Shown here one piece after another: positions 6,333 to 58,525 of a stretch of DNA of 64,000 bases; position 1 is the stretch's first letter, and each line of letters opens with the position of its first letter. A program made the position numbers and the translations under genes. The stretch is taken from contig OX485808.1 in the NCBI GenBank assembly GCA_950295325.1, forward strand, positions 30,402,527 to 30,466,526, written 5' to 3'. The notes under the pieces are model-generated. The model was not told the origin of the DNA. It did not search any database and saw nothing but the letters and a program-made list of their open reading frames with translations. Origin of the DNA: Polytrichum commune. Its lineage: Eukaryota > Streptophyta > Polytrichopsida > Polytrichales > Polytrichaceae.

Positions 6333-6386
6333 CCCCTAAACCTAAACCCTAAACCTAAACCCTAAACCCTAAACCCCTAAACCCCT
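6333..6386 (-). repeat. Interstitial telomere-like tract (CCCTAAA type)
   Basis: About seven tandem or near-tandem CCCTAAA/CCTAAA/CCCCTAAA units lie in a row here. This is the plant TTTAGGG telomeric repeat read from the C-rich strand. It sits inside ordinary AT-rich sequence, so it is interstitial rather than a chromosome end. Confidence 0.85.
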
Positions 6387-21868: not shown

Positions 21869-24800
21869 TACATATATAAATAAAAACATTCCATGACAAC
21901 AAAATCATATACAACAACTCTAACAACACACAAACACAAACATAGCTGATACTCCGAACCCACCTCAGCTAGCATACTAGCAATGATACCCAAATTTATA
22001 CACACAAATGAAAACCTTACCGAAGTCCCAACCCCCAACTCAATATTGCCATAGCTCCAAGCAATTGTAATCAACAACAAACCCATAACATCCATACTCA
22101 TTTTAAATATGTACATGCCAACACAACTCCAAGATACACACCTCATACAAGAAATCCAAAGTCATATCGAAACATTGGTAAATCAACACCCAAAACACCA
22201 AACTATCCTAACATGTGATTTAATCGGGACATACTACTAAAGGGTAGATCATCCAACGGCATACCATCTCCCCAAACTTAAACAACAAGCCTGCACAAGA
22301 TCACCCATCGCCATAAGACTCTTCCTACTTTCGAGTATACAAAATACACACCACCACTACAAACCGCGCATTCCCCATCAAAAAGACCCCACTAGAGCAA
22401 GCATGGAGATCCAATTCGACATACGCCAACTTCACAAATAATGCAAAGACAAAATTCCAGCCATAACTTGATAAATTATACACATACGGTATCACAATGC
22501 TACCACAAATCCAAAACAAATAGACTATAGCCATACTAGCCCCGGAGTAATTCCGAACCACATACAAACACGCACCCAAAATCATAAAAGATGCATTACA
22601 ACAAGCCCATTCACTATTCCCTCCCCTGCCAACACTCAAACCCAATCGGAACCACCCACAAACAACACAACGCACACTTGCAACCATCGCACATGACATA
22701 AAGACCCCACCACAACCTATACTAGGGCAAACAATCCACACCATAATTAATGAAAAAACCACCACCAAAGAAGATAAGTGGGGGGCAAGCCATCAAAAAA
22801 AACGTACCTATGCCAATGGCAAACCCCAAGAGGAGCCACATAACAATGGAGCATAGAGGACGACCTCCTGCAGCCAGACAACATACTACTAGACCATAAT
22901 TTACTACTTATAACACAATACCATATGAAGGCTCTAAAACAAAAAACCACCCAAACCTACACTACATACCTCAACCATACCCAAACAAAGGTCAACAAAT
23001 TCATACATCCCCCACTAAAAATCACCAACCTCAAGTTATCCACACAAGAGTGCAACCCGGACAAGGACATCCTCACAAATAAACCAACCCTACAAATACA
23101 AGACGCAAAGTCCCACATATACAACCAAGGCAAAAACTACATGGCCACCATCACTACAAAAAAACTCCATTAACTATGGAACCGATACTCCCATATTAAC
23201 CTCCCGCACCTAACCAACTTCCTAAAACCCCAACCACAAGCCTTTGAAACCGAAATCCTATGGCTTATACAAAGATACATAACTATATTCCCCAAGGAAA
23301 AACCAAAAAATATACAACCCAACAACAACCACCATACGCTACATCTGGAAATCACCAAACTGCTAATAGATCCCTTTAAAAGCACGCGTTCATACTACTC
23401 CTCCCCACTTACTTGCCCCATCCAACTCACACAATACAATTCACCCCACCACCATGACATAATATTCGGCTTCTTGGGCCACGTAAAATCCTCCAGATGG
23501 GAAGGAATAGGCCTAGCGTATCCCACATACCACAACGCATCCCTAAAAGCCATCCACTGGGCTAGAATGGCAGCCAAAGAAGACGCCCACACAATCACCA
23601 TCCTAATAATCAACCGCAACGACTAGACATCACAAAAACTCCCAATCACCACACACGTAGACATACATATAATAGCAACCACCCCACCCCACGCTATACA
23701 TTATGACCCCACACCATAATGGACAAAATACTACAAACGCATAGAACCATCCTTGACATCAATAATATATGCATACATAACCAAGTAAACCTCACAACAA
23801 ACTTACAAACCCCACACGAACTACAACAAGTCCTAAAGACCACAATTAACATACACGTAGACAAATACCCCATTAAACCAAACCCCTCACACACCCATGT
23901 TAAATTCTCCGAAGCATGGAAAGATGCCACCAAAACAAACGCCCCCATCCCAATAAACACCTACTAGCCAAATACAACCACATCCGTCCCCTTAAATACC
24001 ACCCACAACATTGCATTTACACATATGACACATTTATCCCACCCACCATAAACTTTGAAGGCCAAATAGAGGGCAATACAACCATATCAAGAATCTATAA
24101 CCCCAACAACAACACACAAATAACAGAGTGATTCCCAAGCTACCAAAACATCTTGCAAGCATGACTTCACACAATACTCATTGCTATCAAAACCTTACAA
24201 ACCACTCAACTAAACATACACATATTTACAAACAACCTAAATATCATATTCTTAATCAACAATCACATACAACACCCGACATCCCAACATCATCACCCCA
24301 AAAAACTATTAATAGCAACAATTGTACACAAAATATACTAGACCCCACACACAATTCACATCCATAACGTACGCGCACACTCGGGCAACACTGGAAATGA
24401 AATAGCTGACACACTAGCCAACAAAGGAATACTTAAAGAAAAATTGACCACCACCCCACACATACACACGGCTCCCTACTAGCTAGTAAGTTGCCCAACA
24501 ACTACACATGACGGAGCCATTCGCAACCTTTGCACATTCATAGCAAAAGAACACGGAAACTGTGAAACTAAAACAACCAAAACCAAATTCCCATACATGG
24601 ACAAATGGTTATCCGACACTCAAATAAACCAAAAACTCTCCAACCACTTTTGGAAAAATGAAAACGTAACAGATGCCCAAATCACCCAAAAGTTCAAATT
24701 CGGATACGCACAATACGTGGGTAGCCACATGATGAATATCTTCTGGCCCCCTTACACATCAAAACCCAATTGCACATTGTGTCAACACAATGACAAAGAC

Positions 24801-25870
24801 ACCTGGCCCCACCTTCTATCAACATGTGAACACCCATACTTAAAAGGCCTAAGAATCGCCTCGGGGGGGGGGGGGTAGTCATTGGTTGGAGTAGCAATAT
24901 ACGTGCGAACAAATGATAGGGTATTTTAAAAATATGGGGGCAAAAAATTATAAATGGACTTAAGAGTAATATAGGGTATCAAAAATGACACTGGACATCT
25001 TTAAAGTACTATAGGGTATGGAATAATAGGTGATTTGGAATTATAAGTAATGCAAGCCATTTTTCTATTAACCCAAAGTAGAAATTTACATAATGATAGC
25101 ATGTGAAAAAAAAAAAAAATTGAAAGTAATACCCCCCTATAAAATAGTGGTTGTTCGCACCTATATCCTTAATTTTTTAACACACTGCCCCCCCCCCCCC
25201 GAGAGAATCGCACGACACAATAAAGGAGTACACCTCATTACCCAAACACTATAAGCTAACAAAAACACCTGGTTCTTCACACTAACCAATGCAGGCAACC
25301 TTAACAACAAACCACCCAAACAAACAATCCTAGACTAGCTCTTTAAATGTACATGTTCCCAAATAATATGCCTATGCTAGCCAAATTACGACCAAACATT
25401 CTATGCATAATCGGCATCCCGAACCACACACAAATACCAATATCACCCTCCCCCACACTCACAATCCAACTCATTGAATTCACATATAGCCACGATAGAT
25501 ACCCCGATCATGCCGTCACACACAAACACACTAAATACAACCCTCTAATCAAAACCTTACAAAACAATGGATGGAAAACCAACTTCCTCATTATCATCAC
25601 AACTGGAGTTAGAGGCACCATACACAAACACTCCATTAACAAACTTAACAATTTAAAACTCCCAAAACCAACCATTAAAACCCTCATGAAGAAAATACAC
25701 CAGAATGCCATCAAATACCTTACAAATCTCGTCCTAAACACAAGAAAACTTGAAAACAAACAAGCACCCGTTGCCCCCCACCCCCACCCCCAAACACGCA
25801 CACAATGAAATGGGAAAACATATACAAACACATGAGCCCACTCACGGACAACCGTGATCAACACTAGGTT
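21869..25870 (+). pseudogene. Degenerate A/C-rich retroelement ORF(s): endonuclease-like, RNase H, zinc-finger, C-terminal domain
   Basis: The plus strand is strikingly A/C-rich for 4 kb and encodes interrupted protein blocks in consistent order. Near 22,100-22,230 lies HLIQEIQSHIETLVNQHP with TCDLIG, resembling the GDFN region of an AP-type endonuclease. At 23,440-23,625 comes a conserved block (FGFLGHVKSSRWEGIGLAYP, AIHWARMAAKED). At ~24,010-24,430 is an RNase H-like domain ending VRAHSGNTGNEIADTLANKG. At 24,760-24,850 a zinc finger-like C-x2-C ... H-x4-C follows. At 25,347-25,808 is an open 153-codon C-terminal segment. Stops and frameshifts break the rest, and a catalytic Asp of RNase H looks changed (IFTNNLN). 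No YxDD reverse-transcriptase motif was seen. A 344-bp element interrupts it at 24,860. Confidence 0.75.
24852..25211. mobile_element. Poly-G-ended inverted-repeat element, 344 bp, inserted in the retroelement, 8-bp target-site duplication
   Basis: The element proper is 24,860-25,203. It starts CTCGGGGGG (G13) and ends (C14)GAG, with further inverted homology inside (GTGCGAACAA against TTGTTCGCAC). AGAATCGC flanks it on both sides (24,852-24,859 and 25,204-25,211). Removing it rejoins the retroelement reading KGLRIA to ARHNKG. No coding sequence lies inside. Confidence 0.88.
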
Positions 25871-26231
25871 TACGGGCTCACATTCATGCCAACACCTAGC
25901 TACGGGCGTTACTTTTTCTTTTTCTTTTTGTGTTGTTGAATTTGGAATATGTGCGTAGTATATAGAGATCTTTAGATGCTTTGTAATGTACACAATTAAG
26001 AGGGCCTATGTGATCCCTTAAAATGAAAAATAAATTTCACTTTGATCTTTGATAAGTTTCTCTTCTCAACCCCGCTTTTGAAACTTTAAATGATAATGCT
26101 TGTGATAACGCAATTGTTAACTGGATGAGATAGTTCCCATTTGATCCAACGGCCAAACTTGCATGTGGATTGCAAAGTGCCCACACTAGGGCCACTTTTC
26201 CTTGGGACCACTACACCAATTAAGAAATCTA

Positions 26232-39870: not shown

Positions 39871-39914
39871 ATATCGGTATATGACATAATTATGTTGATT
39901 GTGATGTTTTGTGT

Positions 39915-41567
39915 ATGATTTTCCAGGAACATATGCAAATTATGACAAACATACAAGGCTTACTAGAGGAAGTTACAAACTTCCGTAAAATAGAGGAGAA
40001 TCCAAAGGTTTTGAATAGTAGGCAATGCAAGAATTTGTTGGTGAATATTCAAAATGGTTTGAAAACAATTCAAAGGATGATCGATGGTTCCTATGGCGCA
40101 GATGTGTTCCACCAAGTAGAGCAAGAGATGCTTGGTATTATGAAGAAAACAAGGCATATGGTTGAAGAATGTTGCAAGGTCGGTGATTGGTGTCGAGTGG
40201 TGGTCATGCAATTGAATAACAAAGAATCCTTCAGAGAACTTCTCTTGGACTTTGAGTATTGTTTCCACACAATGTGCGAAATATTTTGCCAATCTTTTCC
40301 TAGTCGTGAAGTTGAAATCCGAGATATGGAAAAGTCTGCAACATTCTACCCGACAACCATTGATGAAGTTGAGCAAGACCAAAATGCAATATTTGAAAGA
40401 CTTTCCAAGGAAGTTGATTTGTGCACAACTGACAATTGCCACGATCATTGCATGCTTTTGCGATATTTGATGGAACGAATAAGGGGGTTGCAAAAGGCCA
40501 CGGGTGGTGAATTAGATAGCATCATCTTTCCAGATAACTTTGAACCCCCTGACTATGGGAGGGCACCTAAGCTTTTGGGTAAGGGGGGGTTTGGGAGTGT
40601 GTACTCAACCCAATGGTTTGGATTTGAAACTGCTACAAAGATTTTCAAAGTTGAGAACCTTGAGCATGAAACAATTGTTCGCAAGGAGGCTAGTATTTTG
40701 GGCGGATTGGATCATCCCAACATCATCAAGTTTTTTGGTTGTGGCTTATCAACGGAATGTGACGCACGTGCAAGAGAAAGTAAAAGATTTGAAATCGTCA
40801 TGGAACAAGGAATTTTGAGCTTATCAAGGTTTTTGGAAGGAGATATGTTGACAGAAGCCATGGGAGTTGACATTTTGATACAAATTGCAAGTGGAATGTG
40901 TTATCTTCATGACATGAAAGTGGCGCATCGTGATTTGAAGCCCGATAATGTGATATTGACTTCAACGGGTGGCTCAACATTGGAACATGTGCATGTGAAG
41001 ATACTTGATTTTGGGATTTCCAAGATTGAAGTGAAAAACTCGCCACAAGTGCCTACAAATGAAGGTTGTTTTGGTACTCGCGGATATATGGCACCTGAAG
41101 CTCATAAAAAACGAACATCAGAGGTGGATGCATTCAAAACGGATGTATTTAGTTTTGGCATGATGTGCTACGAGATTCTTTCGAACAAGAGACCGGAGTT
41201 ACCCAAAACTTGGTCTAAAGATTTGAAATCATTGATACATGAATGTCGGTCTTTGGAGCCTTTGAATAGGCCCACATTCCTTGATATCTTTGAGAGGTTG
41301 AGAAAAGTCAAAAGTGATGCAATGCTCAAGGTTGCTAGTGATGTGAGAGTGGCTAAAATTTTGCACGAATCCACAACTCCTAGCAGTTCTATGGAATATC
41401 CAAAGCGATGTTGGACAATGGTGAAACATAAATTCCATGCATTCAATATATGGGCAATTCTTCTTTTGTGGCAAATGTTTATCACCTTTGCTCAATGGTT
41501 GTCACGTTACATATCAAATTTTTTAAAGGCAATTTCCATTTCGTCATCAAATAAAATAGATGACGAG
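39915..41567 (+). CDS. Exon 1: N-terminal helical domain, kinase domain and hydrophobic segment
   Basis: The exon is open from 39,909 to its donor GAG|GTAAGC at 41,568. The N-terminal ~200 residues are charged and leucine-rich, with heptad-like spacing (LLEEVTNFRKIEENP and onward). They are reminiscent of the four-helix bundles that precede kinases in plant MLKL-like or DUF1221-type proteins, which is inference only. The kinase motifs are complete. Near the C-terminal end, AFNIWAILLLWQMFITFAQW is a possible membrane segment between kinase and NB-ARC, unusual for an NLR. Confidence 0.85.
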
Positions 41568-44500
41568 GTAAGCATTGAATGAGGTCTACCTTCATTGTCA
41601 ACTTTTAGTAGGGGTCTAAAGATTGTGCATTGTGACTTTATTGGTAAAATTTGGAATTTAGTGGTATTTTTCTAGTGAGGTTTGTTAGATGGCAATGAAA
41701 GTTTTCATTTGGCATTTTATGTAGGTCACTAAGGAAACAAAGCGAATCTCCAAATTGATCGGACTCGAAGGAAAGATATTGGAATTGGAGAAGCAACTTC
41801 ACGACCTTGGTAGTTTGGGGATTGTTGGCATGGGAGGAATTGGCAAATCAACTTTGGCAAATGCTGTAAGCGACCATGTTTCCCACAAATATGGTGCGAC
41901 ATGCTTCGTGGGTGACTTTACATGTGAAAGTTGTACCATTCACGTGAAATACAAACTACAAGATGTGAAAGAGCCACCTCAAAGCAAAACATTGAAAGAA
42001 GGGCACACATTTTTGAAACAATTGCAAGAGACCAAAAAAATCCTTATTGTTTTGGACAATGTGGGCAACGCAAGGCAACTGGAAGAACTATTGGGTGATT
42101 GCACATGTCTTGATGTTCATGGTAGCCAACTTATTGCTACTTCCCGTAATTGGGAGTCTTTGAAACGACACATACCCATAGTTGGTAAAGTAGATATGGA
42201 GACCCTTGATAAAGAGCAATCTAAAGAATTATTTTCTCTCCATGCATTTGCGACCAACCAACCATGTTTGCCATATTTGGAACATGTAGTTGAGAAGATT
42301 GTAAAGGCTTGTGATGGGCTTCCTTTAAGTTTGGAGGTGATGGGTAGTTATTTGCATGGAGAAAGAAGGTTGAGAATATGGGAGCGAACTTTACAAAGGT
42401 TGTTGAGGGCAAGACACGATGGAAGCATAGATGGGAAAATATGGGAAACATTGAGGATTAGCTTTGATGAACTCGGTGAGAAAGAAAAAAGTATGTTTTT
42501 AGACATAAGTTGTTTCTTTTCCAAGGGCTCCTCAATTGGTGACTGGGTGTTTACAAAAGCAACACTAGTTCGAATGTTTCATGATGACATCAAGAATACC
42601 CATCACATATTGGAAAGTCTACAAGGCAAATCGATGGTGAAATTTGACAAGAACGACAATTTGGATATACATGATCAATTGCAGGATATGGGACGCATGA
42701 TTGTTGAAAAAGAATTACAACAAACTCGAGTTTGGAATTTATCTTTGACAACATTCCTCGAATATTGGAATGACAAGGTATGATACATAATGCAAATGAA
42801 ATTGTAGATTCTTTGCTACTTTGTTAGAATATTGTATTAATTATACTAGAGAATTAATTGCATGTGGTGTTGTACTTGCAGGGCATAGAACTTGTGGAAG
42901 GCCTTTCATTCACTACGTTTGAAAGGAATAATTCGGCAATTCAAACAAATGTAGGTGTGAACACTATGAAAAACCTACGATTTTTGAGTATTAAGAATTG
43001 TGAACACATCGACATGCTTTTAGCTATCATTACCAAAACAGTGACATTGAAATGGTTGAGGATCCATTTCTCAACTCTAAATGACAACATTTTACAGCAG
43101 CATACATATTTTATGAAGGAATTCATGAAGGTTGGTGAAGATCATCTTCAACAATTGGGTGTACTTGAACTATTTGAAATCATAATTTGCACACCTGCTA
43201 TATTCCAAAATTTCCAACCTAAATTCTTGAAAGAAATATCTTTCATCAAGTGCACGTTCCCACAAGGGGAATTTCCAATTGGCCTTGGAAAGATAGAATT
43301 GGAAGAACTCAACATTTCTGACTGTGAACAACTGAAAACACTACCCAAAGACTTTATCCATTTGACATCTATACTCAAATTGGACATCTCAAAATGTACG
43401 AGCTTGGAGGAGTTCCCTTCCGGAATATGCACTCTCAAGACTTTGGAGAAATTATCATTCAGAGGATGCAAATCTTTGAGGAGAATACCGGAAGGGTTGG
43501 GGGGGTTGACTTCTTTGAAGAAATTGATAATGTGGGATTGCGAGGCCTTGGAGGAGTTCCCTTCCGGAATATGCACTCTCAAGGCTTTGGAGGAATTACA
43601 TTTCAATGGATGCAAATCATTGAGGAAAATACCAGAAGGGTTGGGGGGGTTGATTTGTTTGAAGAAATTGTACATGTGGGATTGCGAGGCCTTGGAGGAG
43701 TTCCCTTCCGGAATATGCACTCTCAAGGCTTTGGAGGAATTACATTTCAATGGATGCAAATCATTGAGGAAAATACCGGAAGGGTTGGGGGGGTTGATTT
43801 GTTTGAAGCAATTGTACATGTGGGATTGCGAGGCCTTGGAGGAGTTCCCTTCCGGAATATGCACTCTCAAGGCTTTGGAGGAATTATCATTTAGAGGATG
43901 CAAATCTTTGAGGAAAATACCAGAAGGGTTGGGGGGGTTGGTTTGTTTGAAGAAATTGATGATGTGGGATTGCGAGGCCTTGAAGGAATTCCCTTCCGGA
44001 ATATGCACTCTCAAGGCTTTGGAGGAATTAAATTTCAGAGGATGCAAATCTTTGAGGAAAATACCGGAAGGGTTGGGTGGGTTGACTTGTTTGAAGAAAT
44101 TGATGATGTGGGATTGCGAGGCCTTGGAGGAGTTCCCTTCCGGAATATGCACTCTCAAGACTTTGGAGGAATTATATTTCAATGGTTGCAAATCTTTGAT
44201 GAAAATACCGGAAGGGTTGGGGGGGTTGACTTGTTTGAAGAAATTGATGATGTGGGATTGCGAGGCCTTGGAGGAGTTCCCTTCCGGAATATGCACTCTC
44301 AAGACTTTGGAGGAATTATATTTCAATGGTTGCAAATCTTTGATGAAAATACCGGAAGGGTTGGGGGGGTTGACTTGTTTGAAGAAATTGTACATGTGGA
44401 ATTGCGAGGCCTTGGAGGAGTTCCCTTCCGGAATATGCACTCTCAAGGCTTCGGAGGAATTACATCTCAATGGATGCAAATCTTTGAGGAAAATACCTGA

Positions 44501-45182
44501 AGGGTTGGGGGGGTTGACTTGTTTGAAGAAATTGATGATGTGGGATTGCGAGGCCTTGGAGGAGTTCCCTACCGGAATATGCACTCTCAAGGCTTTGGAG
44601 GAATTCTATTTCTATAACTGCAAATCATTGAGGAAAATACCGGAAGGGTTGGGGGGGTTGACTTGTTTGAAGAAATTGTACATGTGGAATTGCGAGGCCT
44701 TGGAGGAGTTCCCTTCCGGAATATGCACTCTCAAGGCTTTGGAGGAATTACATCTCAATGGATGCAAATCTTTGAGGAAAATACCGGAAGGGTTGGGGGG
44801 GTTGACTTGTTTGAAGAAATTGATGATGTGGGATTGCGAGGCCTTGGAGGAGTTCCCTTCCGGAATATGCACTCTCAAGACTTTGGAGGAATTATATTTC
44901 AATGGTTGCAAATCTTTGATGAAAATACCGGAAGGGTTGGGGGGGTTGAGTTGTTTGAAGAAATTGTACATGTGGAATTGCGAGGCCTTGGAGGAGTTCC
45001 CTTCCGGAATATGCACTCTCAAGGCTTTGGAGGAATTACATCTCAATGGATGCAAATCTTTGAGGAAAATACCGGAAGGGTTGGGGGGGTTGACTTGTTT
45101 GAAAAAATTGATGATGTGGGATTGCGAGGCCTTGGAGGAGTTCCCTTCCGGAATATGCACTCTCAAGGCTTTGGAGGAATAA
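39915..45182 (+). CDS. Protein kinase-NB-ARC-LRR immune receptor (moss PNL class), three exons
   Basis: This is an intracellular NLR-type receptor. Coding exons are 39,915-41,567, 41,725-42,777 and 42,882-45,182, joined by two phase-0 GT-AG introns (GTAAGC...TATGTAG and GTATGA...TTGCAG), giving about 1,668 residues. Residues ~1-200 are helical. ~218-465 form a TKL-like kinase with GKGGFGSV, the ATK lysine, HRDLKPDN, DFG and APE, all apparently catalytically competent. ~511-534 are strongly hydrophobic. ~570-900 form the NB-ARC with P-loop GMGGIGKST, kinase-2 ILIVLDNV, GLPL and an MHD-like IHDQLQDMGR. The rest is LRR. Kinase-NBS-LRR fusions are a moss NLR class. The end is a TAA where sister units have TTA, so the LRR domain is shortened. 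The start is uncertain: an acceptor-like TTTTCCAG at 39,926 could mean an upstream exon, and the next ATG is 39,933. Confidence 0.85.
41725..42777 (+). CDS. Exon 2: NB-ARC nucleotide-binding switch
   Basis: It starts after TATGTAG in phase 0 (VTKETKRISKLIGLEGK) and ends AAG|GTATGA in phase 0, giving 351 codons. Visible motifs are P-loop GMGGIGKSTLANAV, RNBS-A-like CFVGDF, kinase-2 LIVLDNV, RNBS-B GSQLIATSRNW, GLPL in CDGLPLSLEVMG, FLDISCFF (RNBS-D-like, typical of the TIR-type lineage) and the MHD-equivalent DIHDQLQDMGR. The domain is uninterrupted and of normal length, consistent with a working ATP/ADP switch. Confidence 0.9.
42882..45182 (+). CDS. Exon 3: LRR domain, ending at an in-frame TAA
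   Basis: It opens after TTGCAG in phase 0 (GIELVEGLSFTTF). The first ~170 codons are degenerate LRR and linker. From about 43,404 the sequence becomes the regular pair of 24-residue LRRs, CEALEEFPSGICTLKALEEL and GCKSLRKIPEGLGGL with variable LYMWD, LMMWD, HFNG, SFRG or YFNG positions. About 12 units (24-25 LRRs) are read before GAG GAA TAA at 45,180. The homologous codon in sister units is TTA, so the end is a nonsense change rather than a natural terminus. Confidence 0.8.
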   Translation, partial: GIELVEGLSFTTFERNNSAIQTNVGVNTMKNLRFLSIKNCEHIDMLLAIITKTVTLKWLRIHFSTLNDNILQQHTYFMKEFMKVGEDHLQQLGVLELFEIIICTPAIFQNFQPKFLKEISFIKCTFPQGEFPIGLGKIELEELNISDCEQLKTLPKDFIHLTSILKLDISKCTSLEEFPSGICTLKTLEKLSFRGCKSLRRIPEGLGGLTSLKKLIMWDCEALEEFPSGICTLKALEELHFNGCKSLRKIPEGLGGLICLKKLYMWDCEALEEFPSGICTLKALEELHFNGCKSLRKIPEGLGGLICLKQLYMWDCEALEEFPSGICTLKALEELSFRGCKSLRKIPEGLGGLVCLKKLMMWDCEALKEFPSGICTLKALEELNFRGCKSLRKIPEGLGGLTCLKKLMMWDCEALEEFPSGICTLKTLEELYFNGCKSLMKIPEGLGGLTCLKKLMMWDCEALEEFPSGICTLKTLEELYFNGCKSLMKIPEGLGGLTCLKKLYMWNCEALEEFPSGICTLKASEELHLNGCKSLRKIPEGLGGLTCLKKLMMWDCEALEEFPTGICTLKALEEFYFYNCKSLRKIPEGLGGLTCLKKLYMWNCEALEEFPSGICTLKALEELHLNGCKSLRKIPEGLGGLTCLKKLMMWDCEALEEFPSGICTLKTLEELYFNGCKSLMKIPEGLGGLSCLKKLYMWNCEALEEFPSGICTLKALEELHLNGCKSLRKIPEGLGGLTCLKKLMMWDCEALEEFPSGICTLKALEE

Positions 45183-48100
45183 TCATTCCAAGGATGCAAA
45201 TCTTTACGGGAAATACCGGAAGGGTTGGGGGGGTTGACTTGTTTGAAGGAATTGTACATGTGGGATTGCGAGGCCTTGGAGGAGTTCCCTTCCGGAATAT
45301 GCACTCTCAAGGCTTTGGAGGAATTAGATTTCAATGGATGCAAATATTTACGGAAATTACCGGAAGGGTTGGGGGGATTGATTTGTTTGAAGGAACTGAT
45401 GATGTGGGATTGCGAGGCCTTGGAAGAGTTCCCTTCCGGAATATGCACTCTCAAGACTTTGGAGGAATTAGATTTCAATGGATGCAAATCTTTACGGAAA
45501 ATACCGGAAGGGTTGGGGGGATTGACTTGTTTGAAGGAATTGATGATGTCGGAGTGCGAGGCCTTGGAGGAGTTCCCTTCCGGAATATGCACTCTCAAGG
45601 CTTTGGAGGAATTAGATTTCAATGGATGCAAATCTTTACGGAAAATACCGGAAGGGTTGGGGGGGTTGAGTTGTTTGAAGAAATTGATGATGTGGGATTG
45701 CGAGGCCTTGGAGGAGTTCCCTTCCGGAATATGCACTCTCAAGGCTTTGGAGGAATTACATCTCAATGGATGCAAATCTTTACGGAAAATACCGGAAGGG
45801 TTGGGGGGGTTGACTTGTTTGAAGAAATTGATGATGTGGGATTGCGAGGCCTTGGAGGAGTTCCCTTCCGGAATATGCACTCTCAAGGCTTTGGAGGAAT
45901 TATCATTCCAAGGATGCAAATCTTTACGGGAAATACCGGAAGGGTTGGGGGGGTTGACTTGTTTGAAGGAATTGTACATGTGGGATTGCGAGGCCTTGGA
46001 GGAGTTCCCTTCCGGAATATGCACTCTCAAGGCTTTGGAGGAATTACAATTCAATGGATGCAAATCTTTGAGGAAAATACCGGAAGGGTTGGGGGGGTTG
46101 ACTTGTTTGAAGGAATTGTACATGTGGGATTGCGAGGCCTTGGAGGAGTTCCCTTCCGGAATATGCACTCTCAAGGCTTTGGAGGAATTATCATTCAGAG
46201 GATGCAAATCTTTGAGGAAAATACCGGAAGGGTTGGGGGGGTTGACTTGTTTGAAGAAATTGATGATGTGGGATTGCGAGGCCTTGGAGGAGTTCCCCTC
46301 CGGAATATGCACTTTCAAGGTGTTGGAGGAATTACATTTCAATGGATGCAAATCTTTGAGGAAAATACCGGAAGGGTTGGGGGGGTTGACTTGTTTGAAG
46401 AAATTGATGATGTGGGATTGCGAGGCCTTGGAGGAGTTCCCTTCCGGAATATGCACTCTCAAGGCTTTGGAGGAATTCTATTTCTATAACCGCAAATCAT
46501 TGAGGAAAATACCGGAAGGGTTGGGGGGGTTGACTTGTTTGAAGAAATTGTACATGTGGAATTGCGAGGCCTTGGAGGAGTTCCGTTCCGGAATATGCAC
46601 TCTCAAGGCTTTGGAGGAATTACATCTCAATGGATGCAAATCTTTGAGGAAAATACCGGAAGGGTTGGGGGGGTTGAGTTGTTTGAAGAAATTGTACATG
46701 TGGAATTGCGAGGCCTTGGAGGAGTTCCCTTCCGGAATATGCACTCTCAAGGCTTTGGAGGAATTACATCTCAATGGATGCAAATCTTTGAGGAAAATAC
46801 CGGAAGGGTTGGGGGGTTGACTTGTTTGAAGAAATTGATGATGTGGGATTGCGAGGCCTTGGAGGAGTTCCCTTCCGGAATATGCACTCTCAAGGCTTTG
46901 GAGGAATAATCATTCCAAGGATGCAAATCTTTACGGGAAATACCGGAAGGGTTGGGGGGGTTGACTTGTTTGAAGGAATTGTACATGTGGGATTGCGAGG
47001 CCTTGGAGGAGTTCCCTTCCGGAATATGCACTCTCAAGGCTTTGGAGGAATTACATTTCAATGGATGCAAATCTTTGAGGAAAATACCGGAAGGGTTGGG
47101 GGGGTTGACTTGTTTGAAGGAATTGTACATGTGGGATTGCGAGGCCTTGGAGGAGTTCCCTTCCGGAATATGCACTCTCAAGGCTTTGGAGGAATTACAT
47201 TTCAATGGATGCAAATCTTTGAGGAAAATACCGGAAGGGTTGGGGGGGTTGACTTGTTTGAAGGAATTGTACATGTGGGATTGCGAGGCCTTGGAGGAGT
47301 TCCCTTCCGGAATATGCACTCTCAAGGCTTTGGAGGAATTATCATGCAGAGGATGCAAATCTTTGAGGAAAATACCGGAAGGGTTGGGTGGTTGACTTGT
47401 TTGAAGAAATTGATGATGTGGGATTGCGAGGCCTTGGAGGAGTTCCCTTCCGGAATATGCACTCTCAAGACTTTGGAGGAATTATATTTCAATGGTTGCA
47501 AATCTTTGATGAAAATACCGGAAGGGTTGGGGGGGTTGACTTGTTTGAAGAAATTGTACATGTGGAATTGCGAGGCCTTGGAGGAGTTCCCTTCCGGAAT
47601 ATGCACTCTCAAGGCTTCGGAGGAATTACATCTCAATGGATGCAAATCTTTGAGGAAAATACCTGAAGGGTTGGGGGGGTTGACTTGTTTGAAGAAATTG
47701 ATGATGTGGGATTGCGAGGCCTTGGAGGAGTTCCCTACCGGAATATGCACTCTCAAGGCTTTGGAGGAATTCTATTTCTATAACTGCAAATCATTGAGGA
47801 AAATACCGGAAGGGTTGGGGGGGTTGACTTGTTTGAAGAAATTGTACATGTGGAATTGCGAGGCCTTGGAGGAGTTCCCTTCCGGAATATGCACTCTCAA
47901 GGCTTTGGAGGAATTACATCTCAATGGATGCAAATCTTTGAGGAAAATACCGGAAGGGTTGGGGGGGTTGACTTGTTTGAAGAAATTGATGATGTGGGAT
48001 TGCGAGGCCTTGGAGGAGTTCCCTTCCGGAATATGCACTCTCAAGACTTTGGAGGAATTATATTTCAATGGTTGCAAATCTTTGATGAAAATACCGGAAG

Positions 48101-51100
48101 GGTTGGGGGGGTTGACTTGTTTGAAGAAATTGTACATGTGGAATTGCGAGGCCTTGGAGGAGTTCCCTTCCGGAATATGCACTCTCAAGGCTTTGGAGGA
48201 ATTACATCTCAATGGATGCAAATCTTTGAGGAAAATACCGGAAGGGTTGGGGGGGTTGACTTGTTTGAAGAAATTGATGATGTGGGATTGCGAGGCCTTG
48301 GAGGAGTTCCCTTCCGGAATATGCACTCTCAAGGCTTTGGAGGAATTAGATTTCAATGGATGCAAATATTTACGGAAAATACCGGAAGGGTTGGGGGGAT
48401 TGATTTGTTTGAAGGAACTGATGATGTGGGATTGCGAGGCCTTGGAAGAGTTCCCTTCCGGAATATGCACTCTCAAGGCTTTGGAGGAATGAGATTTCAA
48501 TGGATGCAAATCTTTACGGAAAATACCGGAAGGGTTGGGGGGATTGACTTGTTTGAAGGAATTGATGATGTCGGAGTGCGAGGCCTTGGAGGAGTTCCCT
48601 TCCGGAATATGCACTCTCAAGGCTTTGGAGGAATTAGATTTCAATGGATGCAAATCTTTACGGAAAATACCGGAAGGGTTGGGGGGGTTGACTTGTTTGA
48701 AGGAATTGTACATGTGGGATTGCGAGGCCTTGGAGGAGTTCCCTTCCGGAATATGCACTCTCAAGGCTTTGGAGGAATTACAATTCAATGGATGCAAATC
48801 TTTGATGAAAATACCGGAAGGGTTGGGGGGGTTGACTTGTTTGAAGGAATTGTACATGTGGGATTGCGAGGCCTTGGAGGAGTTCCCTTCCGGAATATGC
48901 ACTCTCAAGGCTTTGGAGGAATTATCATTCAGAGGATGCAAATCTTTGAGGAAAATACCGGAAGGGTTGGGGGGGTTGACTTGTTTGAAGAAATTGATGA
49001 TGTGGGATTGCGAGGCCTTGGAGGAGTTCCCCTCCGGAATATGCACTTTCAAGGTGTTGGAGGAATTACATTTCAATGGATGCAAATCTTTGAGGAAAAT
49101 ACCGGAAGGGTTGGGGGGGTTGACTTGTTTGAAGAAATTGATGATGTGGGATTGCGAGGCCTTGGAGGAGTTCCCTTCCGGAATATGCACTCTCAAGGCT
49201 TTGGAGGAATTCTATTTCTATAACCGCAAATCATTGAGGAAAATACCGGAAGGGTTGGGGGGGTTGACTTGTTTGAAGAAATTGTACATGTGGAATTGCG
49301 AGGCCTTGGAGGAGTTCCGTTCCGGAATATGCACTCTCAAGGCTTTGGAGGAATTACATCTCAATGGATGCAAATCTTTGAGGAAAATACCGGAAGGGTT
49401 GGGGGGGTTGAGTTGTTTGAAGAAATTGTACATGTGGAATTGCGAGGCCTTGGAGGAGTTCCCTTCCGGAATATGCACTCTCAAGGCTTTGGAGGAATTA
49501 CATCTCAATGGATGCAAATCTTTGAGGAAAATACCGGAAGGGTTGGGGGGTTGACTTGTTTGAAGAAATTGATGATGTGGGATTGCGAGGCCTTGGAGGA
49601 GTTCCCTTCCGGAATATGCACTCTCAAGGCTTTGGAGGAATAATCATTCCAAGGATGCAAATCTTTACGGGAAATACCGGAAGGGTTGGGGGGGTTGACT
49701 TGTTTGAAGGAATTGTACATGTGGGATTGCGAGGCCTTGGAGGAGTTCCCTTCCGGAATATGCACTCTCAAGGCTTTGGAGGAATTACATTTCAATGGAT
49801 GCAAATCTTTGAGGAAAATACCGGAAGGGTTGGGGGGGTTGACTTGTTTGAAGGAATTGTACATGTGGGATTGCGAGGCCTTGGAGGAGTTCCCTTCCGG
49901 AATATGCACTCTCAAGGCTTTGGAGGAATTACATTTCAATGGATGTAAATCTTTGAGGAAAATACCGGAAGGGTTGGGGGGGTTGACTTGTTTGAAGGAA
50001 TTGTACATGTGGGATTGCGAGGCCTTGGAGGAGTTCCCTTCCGGAATATGCACTCTCAAGGCTTTGGAGGAATTATCATGCAGAGGATGCAAATCTTTGA
50101 GGAAAATACCGGAAGGGTTGGGTGGTTGACTTGTTTGAAGAAATTGATGATGTGGGATTGCGAGGCCTTGGAGGAGTTCCCTTCCGGAATATGCACTCTC
50201 AAGACTTTGGAGGAATTATATTTCAATGGTTGCAAATCTTTGATGAAAATACCGGAAGGGTTGGGGGGGTTGACTTGTTTGAAGAAATTGTACATGTGGA
50301 ATTGCGAGGCCTTGGAGGAGTTCCCTTCCGGAATATGCACTCTCAAGGCTTCGGAGGAATTACATCTCAATGGATGCAAATCTTTGAGGAAAATACCTGA
50401 AGGGTTGGGGGGGTTGACTTGTTTGAAGAAATTGATGATGTGGGATTGCGAGGCCTTGGAGGAGTTCCCTACCGGAATATGCACTCTCAAGGCTTTGGAG
50501 GAATTCTATTTCTATAACTGCAAATCATTGAGGAAAATACCGGAAGGGTTGGGGGGGTTGACTTGTTTGAAGAAATTGTACATGTGGAATTGCGAGGCCT
50601 TGGAGGAGTTCCCTTCCGGAATATGCACTCTCAAGGCTTTGGAGGAATTACATCTCAATGGATGCAAATCTTTGAGGAAAATACCGGAAGGGTTGGGGGG
50701 GTTGACTTGTTTGAAGAAATTGATGATGTGGGATTGCGAGGCCTTGGAGGAGTTCCCCTCCGGAATATGCACTTTCAAGGTGTTGGAGGAATTACATTTC
50801 AATGGATGCAAATCTTTGAGGAAAATACCGGAAGGGTTGGGGGGGTTGACTTGTTTGAAGAAATTGATGATGTGGGATTGCGAGGCCTTGGAGGAGTTCC
50901 CTTCCGGAATATGCACTCTCAAGGCTTTGGAGGAATTCTATTTCTATAACCGCAAATCATTGAGGAAAATACCGGAAGGGTTGGGGGGGTTGACTTGTTT
51001 GAAGAAATTGTACATGTGGAATTGCGAGGCCTTGGAGGAGTTCCGTTCCGGAATATGCACTCTCAAGGCTTTGGAGGAATTACATCTCAATGGATGCAAA

Positions 51101-54100
51101 TCTTTGAGGAAAATACCGGAAGGGTTGGGGGGGTTGAGTTGTTTGAAGAAATTGTACATGTGGAATTGCGAGGCCTTGGAGGAGTTCCCTTCCGGAATAT
51201 GCACTCTCAAGGCTTTGGAGGAATTACATCTCAATGGATGCAAATCTTTGAGGAAAATACCGGAAGGGTTGGGGGGTTGACTTGTTTGAAGAAATTGATG
51301 ATGTGGGATTGCGAGGCCTTGGAGGAGTTCCCTTCCGGAATATGCACTCTCAAGGCTTTGGAGGAATAATCATTCCAAGGATGCAAATCTTTACGGGAAA
51401 TACCGGAAGGGTTGGGGGGGTTGACTTGTTTGAAGGAATTGTACATGTGGGATTGCGAGGCCTTGGAGGAGTTCCCTTCCGGAATATGCACTCTCAAGGC
51501 TTTGGAGGAATTACATTTCAATGGATGCAAATCTTTGAGGAAAATACCGGAAGGGTTGGGGGGGTTGACTTGTTTGAAGGAATTGTACATGTGGGATTGC
51601 GAGGCCTTGGAGGAGTTCCCTTCCGGAATATGCACTCTCAAGGCTTTGGAGGAATTACATTTCAATGGATGTAAATCTTTGAGGAAAATACCGGAAGGGT
51701 TGGGGGGGTTGACTTGTTTGAAGGAATTGTACATGTGGGATTGCGAGGCCTTGGAGGAGTTCCCTTCCGGAATATGCACTCTCAAGGCTTTGGAGGAATT
51801 AGATTTCTCTAAATGCAAATCTATGAGGAAAATACCGGAAGGGTTGGGGGGGTTGACTTGTTTGAAGAAATTGATGATGTGGGATTGCGAGGCCTTGGAG
51901 GAGTTCCCTTCCGGAATATGCACTCTCAAGGCTTTGGAGGAATTAAATTTCAGAGGATGCAAATCTTTGAGGAAAATACCGGAAGGGTTGGGTGGGTTGA
52001 CTTGTTTGAAGAAATTGATGATGTGGGATTGCGAGGCCTTGGAGGAGTTCCCTTCCGGAATATGCACTCTCAAGACTTTGGAGGAATTATATTTCAATGG
52101 TTGCAAATCTTTGATGAAAATACCGGAAGGGTTGGGGGGGTTGACTTGTTTGAAGAAATTGTACATGTGGAATTGCGAGGCCTTGGAGGAGTTCCCTTCC
52201 GGAATATGCACTCTCAAGGCTTCGGAGGAATTACATCTCAATGGATGCAAATCTTTGAGGAAAATACCTGAAGGGTTGGGGGGGTTGACTTGTTTGAAGA
52301 AATTGATGATGTGGGATTGCGAGGCCTTGGAGGAGTTCCCTACCGGAATATGCACTCTCAAGGCTTTGGAGGAATTCTATTTCTATAACTGCAAATCATT
52401 GAGGAAAATACCGGAAGGGTTGGGGGGGTTGACTTGTTTGAAGAAATTGTACATGTGGAATTGCGAGGCCTTGGAGGAGTTCCCTTCCGGAATATGCACT
52501 CTCAAGGCTTTGGAGGAATTACATCTCAATGGATGCAAATCTTTGAGGAAAATACCGGAAGGGTTGGGGGGGTTGACTTGTTTGAAGAAATTGATGATGT
52601 GGGATTGCGAGGCCTTGGAGGAGTTCCCTACCGGAATATGCACTCTCAAGGCTTTGGAGGAATTCTATTTCTATAACTGCAAATCATTGAGGAAAATACC
52701 GGAAGGGTTGGGGGGGTTGACTTGTTTGAAGAAATTGTACATGTGGAATTGCGAGGCCTTGGAGGAGTTCCCTTCCGGAATATGCACTCTCAAGGCTTTG
52801 GAGGAATTACAATTCAATGGATGCAAATCTTTGATGAAAATACCGGAAGGGTTGGGGGGGTTGACTTGTTTGAAGGAATTGTACATGTGGGATTGCGAGG
52901 CCTTGGAGGAGTTCCCTTCCGGAATATGCACTCTCAAGACTTTGGAGGAATTATATTTCAATGGTTGCAAATCTTTGATGAAAATACCGGAAGGGTTGGG
53001 GGGGTTGACTTGTTTGAAGAAATTGTACATGTGGGATTGCGAGGCCTTGGAGGAGTTCCCTTCCGGAATATGCACTCTCAAGGCTTTGGAGGAATTAGAT
53101 TTCAATGGATGCAAATATTTACGGAAAATACCGGAAGGGTTGGGGGGATTGATTTGTTTGAAGGAACTGATGATGTGGGATTGCGAGGCCTTGGAAGAGT
53201 TCCCTTCCGGAATATGCACTCTCAAGGCTTTGGAGGAATGAGATTTCAATGGATGCAAATCTTTACGGAAAATACCGGAAGGGTTGGGGGGATTGACTTG
53301 TTTGAAGGAATTGATGATGTCGGAGTGCGAGGCCTTGGAGGAGTTCCCTTCCGGAATATGCACTCTCAAGGCTTTGGAGGAATTAGATTTCAATGGATGC
53401 AAATCTTTACGGAAAATACCGGAAGGGTTGGGGGGGTTGACTTGTTTGAAGAAATTGATGATGTGGGATTGCGAGGCCTTGGAGGAGTTCCCTTCCGGAA
53501 TATGCACTCTCAAGGCTTTGGAGGAATTATCATTCCAAGGATGCAAATCTTTACGGGAAATACCGGAAGGGTTGGGGGGGTTGACTTGTTTGAAGAAATT
53601 GTACATGTGGGATTGCGAGGCCTTGGAGGAGTTCCCTTCCGGAATATGCACTCTCAAGGCTTTGGAGGAATTACAATTCAATGGATGCAAATCTTTGATG
53701 AAAATACCGGAAGGGTTGGGGGGGTTGACTTGTTTGAAGGAATTGTACATGTGGGATTGCGAGGCCTTGGAGGAGTTCCCTTCCGGAATATGCACTCTCA
53801 AGACTTTGGAGGAATTCTATTTCTATAACTGCAAATCATTGAGGAAAATACCGGAAGGGTTGGGGGGGTTGACTTGTTTGAAGAAATTGTACATGTGGAA
53901 TTGCGAGGCCTTGGAGGAGTTCCCTTCCGGAATATGCACTCTCAAGGCTTTGGAGGAATTACAATTCAATGGATGCAAATCTTTGATGAAAATACCGGAA
54001 GGGTTGGGGGGGTTGACTTGTTTGAAGGAATTGTACATGTGGGATTGCGAGGCCTTGGAGGAGTTCCCTTCCGGAATATGCACTCTCAAGGCTTTGGAGG

Positions 54101-55560
54101 AATTATCATTCAGAGGATGCAAATCTTTGAGGAAAATACCGGAAGGGTTGGGGGGGTTGACTTGTTTGAAGAAATTGATGATGTGGGATTGCGAGGCCTT
54201 GGAGGAGTTCCCCTCCGGAATATGCACTTTCAAGGTGTTGGAGGAATTACATTTCAATGGATGCAAATCTTTGAGGAAAATACCGGAAGGGTTGGGGGGG
54301 TTGACTTGTTTGAAGAAATTGATGATGTGGGATTGCGAGGCCTTGGAGGAGTTCCCTTCCGGAATATGCACTCTCAAGGCTTTGGAGGAATAATCATTCC
54401 AAGGATGCAAATCTTTACGGGAAATACCGGAAGGGTTGGGGGGGTTGACTTGTTTGAAGGAATTGTACATGTGGGATTGCGAGGCCTTGGAGGAGTTCCC
54501 TACCGGAATATGCACTCTCAAGGCTTTGGAGGAATTACAATTCAATGGATGCAAATCTTTGAGGAAAATACCGGAAGGGTTGGGGGGGTTGACTTGTTTG
54601 AAGAAATTGTACATGTGGAATTGCGAGGCCTTGGAGGAGTTCCCTTCCGGAATATGCACTCTCAAGGCTTTGGAGGAATTACATCTCAATGGATGCAAAT
54701 CTTTGAGGAAAATACCGGAAGGGTTGGGGGGTTGACTTGTTTGAAGAAATTGATGATGTGGGATTGCGAGGCCTTGGAGGAGTTCCCTTCCGGAATATGC
54801 ACTCTCAAGGCTTTGGAGGAATAATCATTCCAAGGATGCAAATCTTTACGGGAAATACCGGAAGGGTTGGGGGGGTTGACTTGTTTGAAGGAATTGTACA
54901 TGTGGGATTGCGAGGCCTTGGAGGAGTTCCCTTCCGGAATATGCACTCTCAAGGCTTTGGAGGAATTACATTTCAATGGATGCAAATCTTTGAGGAAAAT
55001 ACCGGAAGGGTTGGGGGGGTTGACTTGTTTGAAGGAATTGTACATGTGGGATTGCGAGGCCTTGGAGGAGTTCCCTTCCGGAATATGCACTCTCAAGGCT
55101 TTGGAGGAATTACATTTCAATGGATGTAAATCTTTGAGGAAAATACCGGAAGGGTTGGGGGGGTTGACTTGTTTGAAGGAATTGTACATGTGGGATTGCG
55201 AGGCCTTGGAGGAGTTCCCTTCCGGAATATGCACTCTCAAGGCTTTGGAGGAATTATCATTCAGAGGATGCAAATCTTTGAGGAAAATACCGGAAGGGTT
55301 GGGGGGGTTGACTTGTTTGAAGAAATTATACATGTCACGTTGCGAGGCCTTCGAGGAGTTCCTTCCGGAATATGCACTCTCAAGGCTTTGGAGGAATTAT
55401 CATTCCAAGGATGCAAATCTTTACGGGAAATACCGGAAGGGTTGGGGGGGTTGACTTGTTTGAAGGAATTATATATGTCGGATTGCGAGGTCTTGGAGGA
55501 GTTCCCGTCCACAATATGCACTCTCAAAGCTTTGGAGGAATTATCATTCAGAGGATGCAA
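43404..55560 (+). repeat. LRR-coding tandem array: ~84 units of 144 bp, with higher-order repeats
   Basis: The unit is 144 bp (48 codons, two LRRs), marked by GAGTTCCCTTCCGGAATATG and GGAAGGGTTGGGGGGGTTGA. Variation is concentrated in a few positions after GAGGAATTA and after GATGTGG/CATGTGG, the predicted variable surface residues. Blocks repeat at larger offsets: 2,734 bp (19 units minus 2 bp) and 1,726 bp (12 units minus 2 bp). The region 46.5-47.4 kb recurs near 49.3-50.1 kb and, as far as its GGGTGG junction, near 51.0-51.7 kb. Units at both array ends are diverged and the middle is nearly uniform. Intact in one frame it would encode about 4,000 residues. Confidence 0.95.
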
Positions 55561-56290
55561 AATCTTTGAGGGAAATACCAGAAGGGTTGGGGGGTTAAGT
55601 TGTTTGAAGCAATTGGCATGAGGGATTGTGAGGTCTTGGAGGAGTTGCCTTCTCGAGTATGCACTGTTAAGGGTTTGGAGGTATAAGTTTTCAAAGGGTG
55701 CAAATCTTTGAGAGAAATACCGGAAGGGTGGGAGGGGTTGAATTATTTGAAAGAATTTGGCATGAGGGATTACGAGGCCTTGGAGAAGTTCCGTTCCGGA
55801 ATATACACTCTCAAGGCTTTGGAGGAATTAGATTTGGATGGATGCAAAAGTTTGTGGAAAATACTTGAAGGGTTGGGGGGGTTGACTTGTTGGAAGAAAT
55901 TGATCATTTGGGAATGCGAGGCTCCGACGGAGTTCCCTACAAGAATATGCATTGTGAAGGCTTTGGACAAACTATCAATTCGTGAATGCATATGTTTGAA
56001 GAAATTGTACATAGGTGATTGCGAGGCCTTGGAAGAGTTCCTTTCTGGAATATGCACTCTAAGGCTTTAAAGGAATCATCATTCAATGAATGCAACTTTT
56101 AGAGGAAAGTAACAGAAGTGTTGGGGGATTTGACTTGTTTGAAGAAATTGAGATGGTGAGGTGGTGGAGGAGTTTCGTATTGAGCTATGGACTTAAGGAG
56201 TTTGGAGGCATTATCATTGTACTGTAGGATATCTTTGAGGTATGTACGGGATGGATTTGAAGGTTTTTGGTGTTTGAAGGAATTGTCCAT
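45183..56290 (+). pseudogene. Disrupted continuation of the receptor's LRR coding region
   Basis: Downstream of the first TAA the same LRR frame resumes at once (from 45,183, with a Met at 45,225). It is then broken repeatedly. G7-to-G6 deletions, each giving TGA, end frames at 46,820, 49,554, 51,280 and 54,735. TTA-to-TAA changes end them at 46,909, 49,643, 51,369, 54,393 and 54,824. GGGTGG junction deletions end them at 47,395 and 50,129. TGA ends them at 48,492 and 53,241. The final units (55,340-56,290) are diverged and indel-rich, with one last open LRR stretch at 55,708-56,070. If transcribed, this would be 3' untranslated sequence of the receptor. The open frames on the other strand and in other phases are periodicity shadows. 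Confidence 0.85.
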
Positions 56291-56745
56291 GGCTTGATAT
56301 AAACTGACTTTATTTGTTCAATGATTTGTTTGTAAGATATGTTGCACAATTTGTGACTTTTCAACTTGGCATACAATTTTGACCAATGGATCTTATTGGG
56401 CATTGTGCCATTCCTGTTGTATGTTGTGTATCATGCAGTTTGTTATTTCAAGTTCAAATTGGGAGTTTTGATGTCAAAGTTAAAGTTGGTCAAAGCAAGG
56501 ATTTTATTTTCCTTTAGATAGTGCCAATTGAGGATGCAAGGCAGGATGTTGGAAAACATGCCTCCATGAATTGTGAGGAGGATGAATGGGGTTGTTCAAG
56601 ACATGACAATGGCTGAAGTAAATTTTATTTGGTTTTGCATGTGGACATTCCTATATGAGAGTTTATGTTTTGCATCCTATTGTGGGCTTGAACTATTCTG
56701 CATATATATATAAAATTTGTGATGTTGAAATCCCCGTTTAAATTA
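56291..56745. other. Intergenic stretch after the array; nothing recognised
   Basis: AT-rich sequence with no gene or repeat partner identified. A polyadenylation region of the receptor could lie here but no diagnostic signal was found. Confidence 0.4.
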
Positions 56746-58359: not shown

Positions 58360-58525
58360 GCCAGCTCGACAGCCTTCAAGCATTCAACCTTCAAGCACTC
58401 AGCTGCTTCGGCAGCCTTCAAACAATCCGCTAGTTCGGCAGCCTTCAAACATTCAGCCTTCAAGCATTCAGCTGCTTCGGCAGCCTTCAAACATTCATCC
58501 TTCAAGCATTCAGCTGCTTCGGAGT
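58360..58525 (+). repeat. Minisatellite (CCTTCAARCATTCAGC units)
   Basis: Repeated CCTTCAAACATTCA, CCTTCAAGCATTCAGC and TGCTTCGGCAG words form an irregular array. Minus-strand frames read it as repeated ECLKAAEAA. It lies inside the 1.1-kb insertion. A coding role is doubtful. Confidence 0.7.

Follow-up and report, generated by a model that had tools for sequence, protein, structure and literature searches.

Copied broken units in the leucine-rich repeat array of a predicted kinase-type immune receptor gene of Polytrichum commune

Results

A Predicted PNL-Type Receptor Gene with a Long Repeat Array

We analyzed a stretch of 64,000 nucleotides of the genome of the moss Polytrichum commune (C6:30,402,527–30,466,526; called the window below, all further coordinates being window positions unless a chromosome is named) that harbors a predicted immune receptor gene with a long array of leucine-rich repeats (LRRs). 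An earlier sequence-only reading had noticed that stop codons and one-base deletions recur in this array as cassettes, and had proposed that the array continued to expand after the affected units had lost their coding capacity. All results were obtained by sequence analysis of one genome assembly.

Open frames for a protein kinase (39,885–41,582), an NB-ARC domain (41,725–42,783) and LRRs (42,858–45,182) follow each other on the forward strand (Table 1), the LRR part giving a match to Pfam LRR_14 (E=7.6e-81). Phase-0 introns with in-frame GT...AG (41,568–41,724 and 42,778–42,881), which were placed by hand, are predicted at the borders between kinase and nucleotide-binding site (NBS) and between NBS and LRR. 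An N-terminal kinase, an NB-ARC domain followed by LRRs, and phase-0 introns at both borders assign the gene to the PNL type (kinase-NB-ARC-LRR) of immune receptors; it has many close paralogs. The PNL class of Physcomitrella shares this domain order and the phase-0 introns at both borders, but the accessible part of that report mentions neither an array of dozens of near-identical LRR doublets nor copied lesions (PMC3352924). For Physcomitrium, another study describes a modest and variable cell-death response to the kinase domain, which suggests that kinase-type heads of nucleotide-binding LRR (NLR) receptors can act in immunity (PMC11218826).

The array was called by TRF at 43,403–56,004 with 87.6 copies. 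Each unit encodes 48 amino acids (aa), corresponding to two LRRs of 24 aa (a doublet). The last five units form a degenerate 3' end that is largely common to the sister genes L001 and L002. We refer to the units without these five as core units; the window has 84 of them, 12 before and 72 after the first stop. The LRR frame closes at the TAA at 45,180 after 12 whole units, and the units behind it (the silent part) are mostly intact individually. The translated receptor would end at this stop and comprise 12 doublets, a number that falls between those of the two sisters, which have 9 and 18 intact ones.

A search with the NB-ARC exon found at least 27 places with 81% identity or more, including the window, 12 of which lie at C6:29.87–30.80 Mb. 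We examined 18 of the 26 other places. Together with the window this gave 19 arrays of 10–89 units, and 16 of them had at least one internal lesion.

Table 1. Positions of the exons, the repeat array, and the broken or copied stretches within it.
Feature	Position	Strand	Remarks
Protein kinase exon	39,885–41,567	+	PF00069 E=3.3e-37; open frame starts at 39,885; predicted end before GTAAGC donor
NB-ARC and winged helix exon	41,725–42,777	+	PF00931 E=6.2e-26, PF23282 E=7.1e-10; splice-like sequence
LRR exon	42,882–45,182	+	766 aa to first stop TAA 45,180–45,182; holds array units 1–12
LRR array	43,403–56,171	+	89 units of ~144 bp, 45 distinct; from unit table
Translated stretch identical to silent part	44,224–44,949	+	726 bp, same as 47,390–48,115
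Unit 13, TAA (codon 17)	45,131–45,274	+	copies at 46,858–47,001, 49,592–49,735, 51,318–51,461, 54,342–54,485, 54,773–54,916
Unit 18, TAA unit minus the stop	45,851–45,994	+	exact copy in paralog L002
Block with G6, TAA and GGGTGG	46,073–48,023	+	recurs at 48,807–50,757 with one mismatch (47,212/49,946)
Unit 24, G7-to-G6	46,715–46,857	+	identical copies at 49,449–49,591, 51,175–51,317, 54,630–54,772
Unit 28, GGGTGG, one base short	47,290–47,432	+	identical copy at 50,024–50,166
Unit 36, TGA ending at 48,492	48,441–48,584	+	identical copy at 53,190–53,333, TGA ending at 53,241
Block with G6 and TAA	48,934–50,075	+	recurs exactly at 50,660–51,801; 1,142 bp, 12 × 144 − 2

Broken Units Recur within Long Copied Blocks

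Fifteen of the 84 core units in the window were broken, by five distinct broken sequences. Four recurrent lesions covered 14 of these units, and the copies of each lesion were identical across the whole unit. The TAA unit was present six times (units 13, 25, 44, 56, 77, and 80), with stops ending at 46,909, 49,643, 51,369, and 54,824 and further TAA codons at 45,180–45,182 and 54,391–54,393. The unit with G7 shortened to G6 was found four times (units 24, 43, 55, and 79), the frame then ending at 46,820, 49,554, 51,280, and 54,735. The GGGTGG unit (units 28 and 47) and the TGA unit (units 36 and 69, at an offset of 33 × 144 − 3) both occurred twice. A single copy was seen for unit 83 (55,205–55,347), which is one base short. 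The cassette positions of the sequence-only reading, including 47,395 and 50,129 for the GGGTGG lesion, were correct when compared with our unit table. Its list lacked the TAA at 54,391, the TGA pair, and the short unit at 55,205–55,347, and gave 45,180 only as a boundary.

G7 counterparts of the G6 unit remain in the array (units 10, 32, 34, 51, and 64). Every G6 unit (4/4) was located immediately 5' of one of the six TAA units, for which random placement among the 84 core units gave p ~8e-6. None of the five broken unit sequences was present in the 18 paralogous arrays examined. In paralog L012, a TGA at the same codon as in the TGA unit of the window was present in two otherwise different units.

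Inside the array we found 15 maximal exact matches of at least 290 bp. The recurrent lesions sit in exact copies of 1,142, 1,139, 1,012, 811, 726, and 667 bp. For example, 46,073–47,211 is identical to 48,807–49,945 (1,139 bp at an offset of 19 × 144 − 2), and the match continues for 811 bp past one mismatch. The lesions recur at offsets of +2,734 (19 × 144 − 2) and +1,726 (12 × 144 − 2), exactly as had been read from the sequence, because long blocks were copied. All 15 offsets fell short of a multiple of 144 by 1 to 5 bases, which is what single-base deletions already present in the spanned stretch would produce. The self-comparison and the unit-by-unit alignment thus confirmed both the blocks and the repeated lesion units, and the non-scattered recurrence of the lesions is borne out by their position inside long exact copies and by the adjacency of G6 and TAA.

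That the lesion-bearing blocks were copied after the lesions had arisen, as had been proposed, is supported by three observations: the broken sequences were confined to the window among the 19 arrays examined, the block copies differed by 0–1 base, and L001 and L002 had no internal lesion.

We considered whether these copies could be an artefact of falsely duplicated segments in the assembly and of miscalled homopolymers in the consensus. Near-identical repeats are hard to assemble, and most of the frame-shifts lie in a homopolymer tract. Short-read assemblies failed on an analogous repeat family of Podospora (PMC12222747). However, the copies have differing neighboring units and do not end at the same points, G6 in the window is confined to one haplotype that always lies 5' of a TAA unit, and nonsense substitutions were copied as well. 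An artefact is therefore highly improbable.

Most Frame-Shifts Map to a Homopolymer Tract Present in Every Unit

Over all arrays we counted 41 distinct units with indels and 13 distinct nonsense units. Among 36 distinct frame-shifted units (140–148 bp), the change aligned in a T/G tract at unit positions 95–104 in 31 units from 12 of the 19 arrays. These 31 units are not independent events, since eight of them (from L004 and L006) belong to one haplotype family. Both L004 and L006 also hold intact units with T3G5A at the tract, and the base lost in this family may be a T. One-base G8 insertions were found in L006, L007, and L009. As the slip-prone tract is carried by every unit, longer arrays would be likelier to break.

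The unit consensus of the window array and of the paralogous arrays has a second stop-free forward frame besides the LRR frame. The G8 insertion in L009 shifts into this frame and leads to a nominal open frame of 2,167 residues in the LRR exon. On the minus strand, long antisense open frames of up to 621 aa cross the array (e.g., 44,612–46,477); they are probably a by-product of repeat composition.

The Window Array Is Much Longer than Those of Its Near-Identical Sisters

The closest paralog among those examined, L001, differed from the window flanks at 21 of 14,409 gap-free columns (99.85% identity), and L002 differed at 78 of the same 14,409 columns, the 87 gapped columns of the three-way alignments being set aside. 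The matches of both sisters to the window extend at least from 34,000 to 62,500. The kinase and NB-ARC exons of the window and L001 showed one difference in total. For the 16 other paralogs, pN/pS (nonsynonymous over synonymous differences per site) against the window was 0.44–0.88 for NB-ARC and 0.34–0.72 for the compared part of the kinase.

Despite this similarity the window has 89 units, the most of all 19 arrays, while L001 has 14 and L002 has 23, which leaves a gap of 75 units to L001. Neither sister had a lesion ahead of its last five units. One unit type was single and identical in L001 and L002, and was present in the window in five copies with T17A, three copies with T65C, and one copy with another change. 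These data are most simply read as growth of the array in the lineage of the window once it had separated from L001 by a very recent duplication, and the difference would reflect mostly growth in the window rather than loss in the sister.

Alternatively, the array may have grown little on balance, the lesions having been spread by gene conversion between units that already existed, and the short sister arrays would then be derived by contraction. Contraction needs a single step, and the unit order of L001 partly matches window units 31–34. Against this, copied blocks of up to 1,951 bp retained their order at a constant offset and with a single mismatch, and eight window copies carry derived forms of the unit type that is single in both sisters. 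We regard this alternative as improbable.

Broken units were also repeated in other paralogs. Lesion-bearing units formed three identical pairs in L018 and one in L004. L004 (units 23 and 30) and L006 (unit 16) had one identical broken unit in common, and both contained close variants of it; this lesion may predate the separation of the two genes. We concluded from the repeated broken units in L018, L004, and L006 that lesion copying is a recurring by-product of array turnover.

Further observations concern the structure of the paralogs. L008 and L010 each harbor an insertion of ~1.35 kb within unit 14. The 350–600 bp directly after the array (56,172–56,706) match 13 of the 18 paralogs at 91–98%, and L001 and L002 match throughout the 3 kb after the array at 98.6–99.8%; no match directly after the array was found in L014, L015, and L016. 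The region 56,172–56,706 may be what remains of the original C-terminus or 3' untranslated region.

The Excess of Copied Units after the Lesion Is Restricted to the Window Array

We determined for each core unit whether it had a twin, i.e., an identical unit in the same array, and split the arrays at their first lesion. For all 19 arrays, 63/217 units before and 121/343 units after the first lesion had a twin (p = 0.14), and without the window the values were 59/205 and 65/271 (p = 0.25). When only twins on the same side were considered, we obtained 51/217 before and 113/343 after (p = 0.017), but 51/205 and 57/271 (p = 0.32) without the window. The window alone showed a difference, with 4/12 units before and 56/72 units after the stop (p = 0.004, the units not being independent). 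Three further arrays had 10 or more core units both before and after the lesion, and their twins before and after amounted to 9/17 and 10/22 (L004), 15/19 and 13/24 (L009), and 15/26 and 15/40 (L012). Since the same-side effect was lost without the window, the excess after the lesion is a feature of the window array alone.

The lesion types of the window had on average 3.00 copies compared to 1.97 for the other types (p = 0.12). Together with the twin counts, this value did not support preferential amplification of broken units as a general property.

These data bear on the view that loss of coding capacity permits expansion, since growth of a protein in frame would be selected against. The window array, the longest among the 19, is interrupted early by a stop in unit 13 of 89, and its tail, like the pooled same-side twins that include it, shows the excess just described. 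This excess rests on the window, however, and in L004, L009, and L012 twins were if anything commoner before the lesion. Such relaxed constraint is thus rather unlikely to drive expansion.

Translated and Silent Units Share Sequence and a Pattern of Variable Exposed Codons

Among 364 distinct units of 144 bp, amino-acid diversity was 0.388 at ten predicted exposed strand codons compared to 0.079 elsewhere (permutation p = 1e-5). In a sample of 200 of these units, pN/pS was 0.25 at the 37 codons outside the exposed set, and reached 0.99 over the ten exposed codons and 1.22 at their core of six. The exposed codons were picked from the LRR consensus, and pN/pS is only slightly above 1 and is a plain ratio, not a fit of a codon model. 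A single-sequence structure model of the LRR part, of low confidence (mean pLDDT 60), showed a strand every 24 residues. By hand, these strands were assigned to unit codons 16–20 and 40–44, in agreement with the chosen exposed codons. Because amino-acid variation concentrates at the predicted exposed codons, the units would be shaped as a binding surface, as far as the pN/pS pattern indicates.

In the window, pN at the exposed codons was 0.185 before the stop (12 distinct units) and 0.212 after it (29 distinct units, pS 0.101). Elsewhere, pN was 0.034 before and 0.029 after the stop, with pN/pS values of 0.60 and 0.30, respectively. On account of these last values the silent units show no sign of long decay, and the lesions look young.

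The nearest unit was located in the same array for a fraction of 0.426 of 394 units, compared to a maximum of 0.115 in 500 shuffles. Of 471 distinct units, 43 occurred in more than one array.

The sequence-only reading had suggested to look for gene-conversion tracts across 45,180, and had left open whether the silent part is a reservoir of LRR variants or neutral. We indeed found an exact match across the stop (Table 1), and the numbers of whole unit types common to both sides of the first lesion were four in the window, nine in L009, and three each in L004 and L012. No whole unit type was shared across it in the remaining 15 arrays, which include three without an internal lesion. We conclude that the translated and silent parts appear to exchange sequence.

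If the silent tail served as a store of variants copied into the translated 5' units by gene conversion, keeping and enlarging it would be advantageous. Such a reservoir would account for the exact match, for the shared unit types, and for the exposed-site pattern kept by the silent units. The direction of copying cannot be read from the match, though, and most arrays share no type across the lesion. Outside the window, amplification ahead of the first lesion matched that behind it in the 18 arrays. Moreover, the lesions are so young that silent units would not yet have lost their coding pattern, which therefore needs no present function. We consider a reservoir unlikely, the neutral passenger being the better-supported alternative.

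Other Features of the Window

An interstitial repeat of the plant telomere type (CCCTAAA, about seven copies) is present at 6,334–6,384. At 22,001–26,000 the two strands differ strongly in composition (GC skew to −0.56, AT skew to 0.41), and one open frame in this region weakly resembles PCIF1_WW (E=3.8e-6, below the cut-off). This was the only match, itself sub-cut-off, when six other open frames of the window were compared to Pfam. A short minisatellite with units of 15, 27, and 42 bp is located at 58,373–58,522, 2.2 kb downstream of the array.

Discussion

The array probably turns over by out-of-register exchange of blocks, with lesions of single units being copied as passengers. According to this model the array would grow and shrink by out-of-register exchange among its units, through unequal crossing-over or an equivalent repair process, and each exchange would copy a block of many units at a time. 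Point lesions would start in single units, mostly as one-base slips in the homopolymer tract, and would then ride within the copied blocks. The molecular route may be either crossing-over or break repair.

Several points weigh against this model. It is based on a single assembly of one individual and on DNA, with predicted splice sites and a predicted translated end at 45,180. Turnover of passengers alone would not call for the excess of twins in the tail of the window array. Part of the length difference could also stem from one large deletion in each of the two sisters, L001 and L002. Protection of the 5' units from lesions was not significant: intact prefixes comprised 171 units compared to 138 expected in 16 arrays (p = 0.14), and the test was also not significant without the window (p = 0.11). 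Selection that keeps the 5' head open was therefore not demonstrated.

In resistance genes of flowering plants, such as flax L and M, Arabidopsis RPP5, and tomato Hcr2, blocks of LRRs are duplicated or lost by unequal exchange, but these genes have far fewer repeats. In lampreys, non-translated LRR modules lie beside the LRR receptor gene VLR, which is incomplete in the germline and is assembled somatically from separate cassettes. In contrast, the LRR exon of the window is already continuous, and nothing in this one assembly indicates somatic assembly.

The window array works like the HNWD receptors of the fungus Podospora anserina, without being a member of that family. The repeats of the HNWD/NWD genes (het-d, het-e, and het-r) show concerted evolution both inside a gene and between genes, and diversifying selection acts on a few of their surface codons; in two HNWD pseudogenes the repeats have stayed almost free of stops, although the other parts of the gene decay (PMC1805685). 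In most spontaneous mutants whose specificity has changed, the repeat array is rearranged (PMC2873952). The window array likewise has near-identical tandem sensor repeats with concerted evolution and diversifying variation at predicted surface codons. Thus, an NLR-type sensor of near-identical repeats, variable surface codons, exchange of units, and gain and loss of blocks are common to both systems (PMC1805685, PMC2873952, PMC12222747). HNWD proteins, however, combine WD40 repeats, usually 11 conserved ones in functional het-d and het-e alleles, with HET and NACHT domains, whereas the window gene has LRRs in longer arrays on a plant PNL scaffold with NB-ARC and kinase. The HNWD pseudogenes were inactivated by RIP (repeat-induced point mutation), while the lesions in the window are slips and nonsense changes inside the array and are visible as copied tracers.

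Among the literature titles and abstract openings that we screened, none mentioned a moss NLR gene with long arrays of near-identical LRRs or with broken units that had been copied, although this coverage was partial and is no proof of absence.

A more speculative extension, which we hold to be doubtful, is a cycle of expansion and truncation. Each added doublet would bring a further slip-prone tract, so that a growing receptor would eventually truncate itself. The silent tail would keep expanding and exchanging with the short head, so that a plant NLR would have a heritable and uncensored workshop for its recognition modules.

Plant immune receptors are thought to vary their sensor repeats by exchanging blocks of LRRs, a process whose steps are usually erased. 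Here, lesions that are confined to one gene serve as tracers of which blocks were copied. The sister gene with a flank difference of 0.15% shows that a change by 75 units (~10.8 kb) is possible in that short time. With at least 19 such arrays, it can be asked whether silent tails feed variants back to working receptors.

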